From positions 1-51,315 of the forward strand of contig JAIBJN010000006.1 of NCBI GenBank assembly GCA_020029595.1: DNA of 51,315 nt, written 5' to 3'. The notes beneath the pieces are model-generated. The model did no database searches and was not told the origin of the DNA. It saw nothing but the letters and a program-made list of their open reading frames with translations. The DNA comes from Actinomycetota bacterium (lineage in GTDB: Bacteria; Actinomycetota; Thermoleophilia; Gaiellales; Gaiellaceae). The position numbers and the translations under genes were made by a program. Positions 28,346-31,284 of the stretch are shown here, one piece after another. Every line of letters begins with the position of its first letter. Positions within the stretch are counted from its first letter, which is position 1.

Positions 28346-29440
<1,095 letters not shown>

Positions 29441-29581: not shown

Positions 29582-30445
29582 TCACCCGGCGGCCGAGACC
29601 GTGCCCACGATCTCGCCCCGACTGTTCCGGAGCGGTCGCTGGGCCAGCTCGTGAATCCCGAGCACGACGCCGGCCGCGGCGTACACGGCCCTGTAGGCTC
29701 CGTCCTCGACCTTGAGGGCGACGCCGGCACCGTCGGGCAGCCCGGCGCAGAGCACGCCTTCGGCACCGCGCTTGGCGACTGCGCGTGGAAGCGCGCGCAT
29801 GACGAGCGTGTCCACCGCCCCGGGTCCGCCCACGAGCTCCGGATGCCCAGTCATCGCGCGAACGACCACGTCCGCGCCCGGCGGCTCGCCGCGGGCCAGC
29901 CCGGCGAAGAGCCGGGCCATCTCGATGAGCGAGAGCGCGAACGTCGGCACCCCGCAGCCGTCGACGGCGGTCTCGATCTCGGCCGGCGGCCGCCCCACCG
30001 CCTCCGCCAGCAGCCCTAGCATCTCCTGCTGGAGGGGGTGTTCCAAGAGCCGGTAGCCGGCAGGGTCCCACCCGCGCGCGCGAGAGAGAAAGAGAAAGCC
30101 CGCGTGCTTGCCCGAGCAGTTGTGCCGAAGGCGCGACCCGTGCTCGACCCCGCACTCGAGGTCATCCGTCGAGGCACCGGCCCGCTCGAGGAGGGAGCGG
30201 ACGGCGACAAGCTGGTCGGGCCGCGCCTCGTGGGAGGCGCACGCGATGGCCAGCTCCTCCTCCGGCAGGCCGAACGGCACGAGCGGGAGGGCCTGGAACG
30301 GCTTCGCCGCCGAGCGGACGAAGGAGACGAGGTCGGGGTTCCCCCAGGCTTCGGTCACCTCGCCATCGCGGACGAGCACCGCGTCCGCCCGGTGGCGAGA
30401 CTCGACGAGCTCCCCGCGGGTCACGGCTACCCTGATCGCGTCCAC
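29582..30445 (-). CDS. L-asparaginase II family (Rhizobium etli-type) protein
   Basis: A 287-residue protein of the asparaginase II fold (class 3, serine-beta-lactamase-like), unrelated to EcAII. Family motifs: FVRSAAKPFQALPL (S-x-x-K), ACASHEARPDQL, HNCSGKHAGFL and DGCGVPTFALSL, whose cysteines are the metal-binding residues of this class. It hydrolyses L-asparagine to aspartate and ammonia. The GTG start has no clear ribosome-binding site and lies 11 bases from the oppositely oriented start of the DNA glycosylase gene, so the two promoters must overlap the opposing coding regions or the transcripts are leaderless. Confidence 0.88.
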   Translation of the reverse strand: MDAIRVAVTRGELVESRHRADAVLVRDGEVTEAWGNPDLVSFVRSAAKPFQALPLVPFGLPEEELAIACASHEARPDQLVAVRSLLERAGASTDDLECGVEHGSRLRHNCSGKHAGFLFLSRARGWDPAGYRLLEHPLQQEMLGLLAEAVGRPPAEIETAVDGCGVPTFALSLIEMARLFAGLARGEPPGADVVVRAMTGHPELVGGPGAVDTLVMRALPRAVAKRGAEGVLCAGLPDGAGVALKVEDGAYRAVYAAAGVVLGIHELAQRPLRNSRGEIVGTVSAAG

Positions 30446-30451
30446 GAGGAG
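30446..30451 (+). promoter_or_regulatory. Ribosome-binding site supporting an ATT start
   Basis: GAGGAG lies 5 bases before ATT 30457. No ATG, GTG or TTG occurs in frame between the upstream stop TGA at 30433 and the Pro codon that must be residue 2 of an Fpg/Nei enzyme. Confidence 0.6.
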
Positions 30452-30456
30452 TAACT

Positions 30457-31284
30457 ATTCCCGAGTTTCCTGAGGTGGAGGCGGCGCGGCGGACGCTCGA
30501 CGGCCTCGTCGGGCGCTCGCCCGTGGCCAAGGCCGGGCCGGCTCACGTCGCCACGCTGAAGACGTTCGACCCCCCGCTCGCCGCGCTCGAGGGCCGGCGG
30601 CTCGCCGGGGCACGGCGCCGCGGGAAGCATCTGCTGTTCCCGACCGAGGACGGCGGGCTCGTCCTGCACGTCCACCTGATGAGCGCCGGGCGCATCCGCT
30701 TTCTCGAGCCCGGGGCGAAAGGCCCGAAGACTCCGGCGTTCCGCCTCGTGCTCGAAGACGGCGGAGAGCTCGTCCTCACGGAGGCCGGCGCGAAGAAGCG
30801 GGCCCGCGTCGGCGTCTACCGCCCGGAGGAGCTCGAGGCCGAGCTCGCCCATCTCGGCCCCGAGGCGGACGAGATCGACGCGGAGCGGCTCGGCGAGATC
30901 CTCCGGCGCGAGAGCCGCCGGCTCCATCCCTTCCTCCGCGATCAACGCGCGCTCGCCGGCATCGGGCGGGCCTGGTCGAACGAGATCCTCAACCGCGCAC
31001 GCCTCTCGCCCTACTCGCTGACGACCGAGCTCGATGGCGATGAGGTGGAGCGGCTGGCGGAGACGATCCGCGAGACGCTCGCCAAGGGGCTCGAGCTCCG
31101 CCTGCGCGGAGCGTCCGACGCGAAGGCCCACCGCGTCCACGACCGGCTCGGGCGGCCGTGTCCGAACTGCGGGACGCCGATCGCCCGGGTCGACTTCGAG
31201 GAGCACACGATCTACTACTGCCCGGAGTGCCAAACGGCCGGGCGCGTGCTCAAGGACCGGCGCCTTTCGCGGCTCCTCCGCTAG
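30457..31284 (+). CDS. Formamidopyrimidine-DNA glycosylase/endonuclease VIII family (Fpg/Nei), apparent ATT start
   Basis: A 275-residue base-excision repair glycosylase/AP lyase. The N-terminus is P-E-F-P-E-V-E-A-A-R-R-T-L, where Pro2 is the Schiff-base nucleophile and Glu3 the general acid. RGKHLLF carries the conserved Lys. The H2TH segment is IGRAWSNEILNRARLSP, and the C-terminal zinc finger CPNCGTPIARVDFEE...YYCPECQ has four Cys. Since Pro must directly follow fMet, the start codon has to be ATT, with GAGGAG five bases before it. The first canonical codon, GTG at 30475, would remove the catalytic proline. Divergent from asparaginase; overlaps the convergent kinase gene by 4 bases. Confidence 0.9.
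   Translation: MPEFPEVEAARRTLDGLVGRSPVAKAGPAHVATLKTFDPPLAALEGRRLAGARRRGKHLLFPTEDGGLVLHVHLMSAGRIRFLEPGAKGPKTPAFRLVLEDGGELVLTEAGAKKRARVGVYRPEELEAELAHLGPEADEIDAERLGEILRRESRRLHPFLRDQRALAGIGRAWSNEILNRARLSPYSLTTELDGDEVERLAETIRETLAKGLELRLRGASDAKAHRVHDRLGRPCPNCGTPIARVDFEEHTIYYCPECQTAGRVLKDRRLSRLLR

Follow-up and report, generated by a model that had tools for sequence, protein, structure and literature searches.

The Escherichia coli gene infC starts with AUU and is sensitive to IF3, and pcnB is kept at low expression through its AUU start. A sequence-only reading of the DNA analysed here had taken such starts to be known mainly from these two genes and to make translation sensitive to initiation-factor levels; rarity and IF3 sensitivity stand for infC, and what stands for pcnB is the low expression. 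DNA glycosylases of the Fpg/Nei family use the N-terminal Pro, exposed by removal of fMet, as their catalytic nucleophile.

Feedback on infC through a non-canonical start uses ATT in E. coli and ATC in Streptomyces, and the Streptomyces gene sigR, which starts with GTC, is repressed by IF3 (PMC5472188). Staphylococcus genes that begin with AUU or AUA have strong Shine-Dalgarno (SD) sequences, and in poor medium the output from non-canonical starts was ~10% of that from AUG (PMC13009471). Adding more IF3 in vitro led to less correct use of AUU read by a CAU anticodon (PMC10158994). Weak starts have also been reported to be offset by stronger SDs, and one survey that reconstructed about 68,900 ancestral starts counted only 2 switches to AUU (PMC5622118). 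Here we describe an ATT start at an Fpg/Nei-family gene in a 51,315-nucleotide stretch of DNA (the window) that comes from a fragmented 140-contig assembly of a Gaiellaceae-like actinobacterial MAG.

Results

The gene encoding the Fpg/Nei-family DNA glycosylase (275 codons plus stop) occupies positions 30457 to 31284 on the plus strand of the window, an assignment supported by Pfam domains, PDB matches and aligned catalytic residues. Direct reading of the sequence places an ATT (30457-30459) immediately 5' of the catalytic Pro codon. The frame runs from a TGA at 30433-30435, which closes it upstream, through TCG CGT CCA CGA GGA GTA ACT to the ATT and on into CCC GAG TTT CCT GAG GTG GAG, and no ATG, GTG or TTG was found between this TGA and the Pro codon. 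On the same strand, a Shine-Dalgarno sequence, GAGGAG (30446-30451), predicted to pair with the 3' end of 16S rRNA, lies 5 nt 5' of the ATT (spacer TAACT). The ATT before Pro, the lack of an ordinary start back to the TGA and the GAGGAG had each been pointed out in the sequence-only reading, and all three are borne out. The first common start codon in frame, and the sole ordinary one nearby, is a GTG at 30475-30477, six codons 3' of the ATT and within the PEFPEVE motif, whose use would delete Pro2, Glu3 and Glu6. Since removal of fMet must expose the catalytic N-terminal Pro, translation has to begin at the codon before that Pro. Likewise, the start has to be followed directly by Pro2, because P2, E3, E6 and K57 are invariant in a 12-row alignment of relatives that includes the canonical paralogue, as is P5 across the orthologues and this paralogue.

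The encoded protein matches the N-terminal catalytic domain PF01149 (59.8 bits, cut-off 25.5) and the H2TH domain PF06831 (47.3 bits, cut-off 34.7), and it carries cysteines C235, C238, C255 and C258, although the zinc finger PF06827 scores 19.7 bits against a cut-off of 21.3. Its best matches among solved structures in the PDB are MutM/Fpg. It shares with MutM/Fpg (e.g. PDB 1l1t) and Nei the domain order, the N-terminal PE.PEVE, the catalytic Lys, the H2TH domain and the zinc-finger cysteines, but differs from MutM/Fpg in being a divergent paralogue that falls under the cut-off of the canonical equivalog TIGR00577 (NCBIfam; 126.5 versus 203.3 bits). The genome has three PF01149 members: this gene, a canonical Fpg on a separate contig (L001), with GTG before Pro, and a Nei-like gene on the minus strand of L003, which encodes a PEGDALH protein and also has GTG before Pro.

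Comparison within the genus involved two genomes, that of the window and that of a sister species (G001), a MAG that was assembled separately. In the sister (contig JAICGP010000015.1, L034), the upstream TGA is kept and the frame reads TGA ... GAGGAGGAACT ATT CCC GAG TTT CCC GAG GTC. The sequence-only reading had proposed aligning the start of the gene with related genomes, where an ATG would have pointed to a sequencing error; the closest relative carries ATT. With 84% protein identity between the two glycosylases and 62% identity at third codon positions (171/276), the two genomes are well separated, and against this background the leader from TGA to ATT is identical at 20/21 positions. The sister has GTC in place of GTG 30475, and no ordinary start follows until 30 codons (90 nt) downstream. 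Frames are intact and dN/dS is about 0.15 (dN 0.097, dS 0.645, NG86), which shows purifying selection under which the glycosylase gene stayed functional in both species. By parsimony, the ATT was already present in their common ancestor; being ancestral, in a gene under purifying selection since, it evidently works as a start.

Beyond the genus, the ordinary start codons of orthologues align exactly at the position of ATT 30457. The 58 distinct orthologues start with ATG (34), GTG (13), TTG (7), ATT (3) or CTG (1). A search for ATH followed by the motif P-E-[LF]-P-E-[VMI]-E retrieved 3 of 103 family genomes (the window's own, the sister and G012) and 1 of 397 phylum genomes (the window's own only). 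Because the same pattern covers canonical fpg paralogues, these serve as an error control, and none of them had ATH before the motif in the genomes searched. The third ATT, in G012 (genus g12; L028), is preceded by GGAGGAG and then CGTAGATCCG, with an in-frame TGA upstream. Placing the three ATT rows in a single group was rejected (p-AU 1.3e-6) and the tree requires two changes, with some caution due to long branches elsewhere, so the ATT arose at least twice. In a separate observation, CTG stood directly before PE[LF]PE[VMI]E in 8 of 199 class genomes, six of the eight belonging to family f9 (L112-L119; also L075, L076, L077, L081, L084, L086). Several of these cases have an SD-like sequence upstream, a pattern suggesting that CUG starts have recurred in fpg-family genes.

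These comparisons bear on two ways in which the ATT might not be a start at all. Given an assembly broken into 140 contigs, a sequencing or assembly error could have masked an ordinary start codon; yet the identical ATT is found in the independently assembled sister, whose protein is 84% identical, and among the 397 phylum genomes no other has ATH before the motif, which leaves error as the most improbable of the explanations considered. Scarcely more probable is that translation begins at GTG 30475, the codon that a gene caller limited to ATG, GTG and TTG would pick, yielding a truncated, inactive protein, or that the gene is decaying. Such a protein would lack Pro2, Glu3 and Glu6, the sister has GTC at this position with its next ordinary start 30 codons on, and the intact frames and low dN/dS speak against both truncation and decay. 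The sister comparison is thus strong evidence against error and decay, and it all but rules out the use of GTG 30475.

The strength of the predicted pairing between SD and 16S rRNA 3' end was -8.2 kcal/mol for the window, -11.6 kcal/mol for the sister and -10.7 kcal/mol for G012, against a median of -5.4 and a mean of -5.0 kcal/mol for ATG-start orthologues. Equally strong SDs occur in some ATG/GTG orthologues, and the stronger pairing of the ATT copies is suggestive only, as there are three copies, two of them sisters. The strong SDs of the ATT copies nevertheless fit the published compensation of weak starts and the Staphylococcus AUU/AUA genes.

The glycosylase gene is divergent from an L-asparaginase II family gene (29582 to 30445, minus strand; PF06089, 288 bits), whose GTG start is 11 bp from the ATT; the two genes lie head-to-head in 28 orthologous loci. 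Adjoining the asparaginase gene in the window is a gene for a principal-type sigma-70 factor (28349-29440, minus strand). An Rfam search of the window returned nothing at the glycosylase locus, only a distant tRNA. Inside the asparaginase gene, the plus-strand hexamer TACCCT (30428-30433) is probably the -10 box of the glycosylase gene. The pattern TA[CT]NNT is present there in 24/28 orthologous divergent loci, and the assignment follows from the bias of the Val codon within TACCCT/TACGCT, which is GTA in 25/28 genes versus 37/342 Val codons. On the minus strand, AATAGT (30454-30459), which stands 8 nt before the divergent GTG and contains the complement of the ATT, is a candidate -10 box of the asparaginase gene. 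A TANNNT is found 5-10 nt before the asparaginase start in 24/28 loci (which are related, not independent), versus 0.4% of random positions and 3.9% of shuffles, and this suggests that the asparaginase transcript is leaderless; the window and sister have AATAGT in place of an exact TANNNT. In the 28 loci, the two putative -10 boxes face each other, in or beside each other's coding region, and the ATT start codon may be shared with the asparaginase promoter.

Three other routes to initiation were considered and set aside. Leaderless initiation at the ATT was rejected because the SD and the conserved upstream -10-like box would leave a leader of ~16 nt. A plus-strand ORF that terminates at TAA 30452-30454 might have been translationally coupled to the gene, but the sister lacks this TAA (GAGGAGGAACT) and coupling was discarded. 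Finally, a switch through mRNA structure that hides the start gained no support, since shuffled sequences folded at least as well as the two leaders (z +1.0 and +1.6).

The infC gene of the window organism appears to start with GTG, its sole ordinary in-frame start, behind a GGTGA SD, and infC of G012 appears to start with TTG, both as read from sequence. A classic IF3 feedback loop is therefore not evident here. Several family members share a leader 5' of infC (L103-L108) with CCTCACCTCC ... GGAGGTTCAA and a hairpin-plus-T-run-like stretch, possibly an attenuator; no Rfam match was found in L107.

Discussion

We consider that translation of an active Fpg/Nei glycosylase genuinely starts at ATT 30457, a weak start with a strong SD that is tolerated at low expression, and put the probability of this at about 0.78. 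Comparison between species shows both the ATT start and the conserved function. As for initiation itself, the strong, well-spaced SD would position the 30S subunit at the ATT and the initiator fMet-tRNA would read AUU with a third-position mismatch, after which fMet would be cleaved off to expose the catalytic N-terminal Pro. Synthesis of the glycosylase is likely to be low, because AUU is a poor initiator against which IF3 discriminates, with the strong SD partly offsetting this; the mismatch reading, the low yield and the sensitivity of the start to IF3 are all drawn from infC, pcnB, sigR and cvfC1. Low, IF3-sensitive synthesis is the outcome we would expect given the precedents of the Staphylococcus AUU/AUA genes, the in vitro behaviour of AUU with IF3, and sigR. 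In evolutionary terms, an ordinary start probably mutated to ATT on two or more occasions, and the change would have been tolerated as low expression of a repair paralogue suffices.

Two readings would give the ATT a role beyond that of a tolerated weak start. Selection may have retained it for regulation, with IF3 repressing the gene so that a shortage or defect of IF3 raises synthesis, as with sigR. Control of the glycosylase gene by IF3 through AUU is plausible: the ATT and its leader were retained between two species despite a dS of 0.65, and in the same phylum an oxidative-stress regulator is under an IF3-repressed non-canonical start (PMC5472188). However, a single base could be retained by chance at this divergence, and outside the genus ATG, GTG or TTG is the start of almost every orthologue, so AUU control is not a general property of the gene; moreover, with infC apparently starting with GTG here and TTG in G012, there is no evident IF3 homeostasis through a non-canonical start. 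Selection for regulation is for these reasons unlikely in our view, and tolerance of a weak start is simpler. The sister comparison upheld the ATT start proposed in the sequence-only reading; the IF3-type control suggested with it is at most a plausible possibility. The wider idea of a genus-wide, IF3-sensitive control of a repair glycosylase through a conserved AUU, reached independently in a second lineage, is similarly doubtful. A still weaker candidate is that the codon was shaped by the divergent promoter, the base serving the asparaginase gene: TANNNT lies 5-10 nt upstream of that gene in 24/28 loci, and AATAGT in the window and sister includes the complement of the ATT. Yet changing ATT to ATG would alter position 1 of the hexamer only, from A to C, and the consensus T is present in neither; the promoter thus does not explain well why the codon is ATT rather than ATG. 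In G012, furthermore, the ATT falls outside the matching TACGCT box.

We regard the AUU start of this base-excision-repair gene as real, conserved and independently repeated in the genomes compared; the literature searched yielded no DNA-repair gene that starts with AUU. The case is unusually secure, as the position of the catalytic Pro dictates the N-terminus of the protein. A gene caller restricted to ATG, GTG and TTG would begin at GTG 30475 and delete catalytic residues, and for this reason Fpg-like proteins reported without Pro2 merit a check. The fixed N-terminus of the Fpg/Nei family could also help to detect non-canonical starts in general, and CTG was found in the same way. If IF3-sensitive AUU control were true, the capacity for repair would be tied to the condition of the translation-initiation apparatus.

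Set beside the described systems, the glycosylase gene would resemble infC and pcnB of E. coli in having an AUU read by the initiator tRNA and in expression limited at initiation. It differs from infC in that IF3 dependence has been measured for the latter, whereas the glycosylase gene is known here from sequence alone, in an organism whose own infC is apparently GTG-initiated. Like Streptomyces sigR, it is actinobacterial and has a non-canonical start that escapes start-codon prediction; but sigR is a stress-response regulator with a GTC that is conserved across Streptomyces, whereas the window gene is a repair enzyme with an ATT confined to one genus and one other lineage. Staphylococcus cvfC1 (AUU) and ccpN (AUA) likewise combine a non-canonical start with a strong SD and conservation in related species (PMC13009471), although these are Firmicutes genes, for a small protein and a transcriptional repressor, whose starts were mapped experimentally, while that of the glycosylase comes from sequence.
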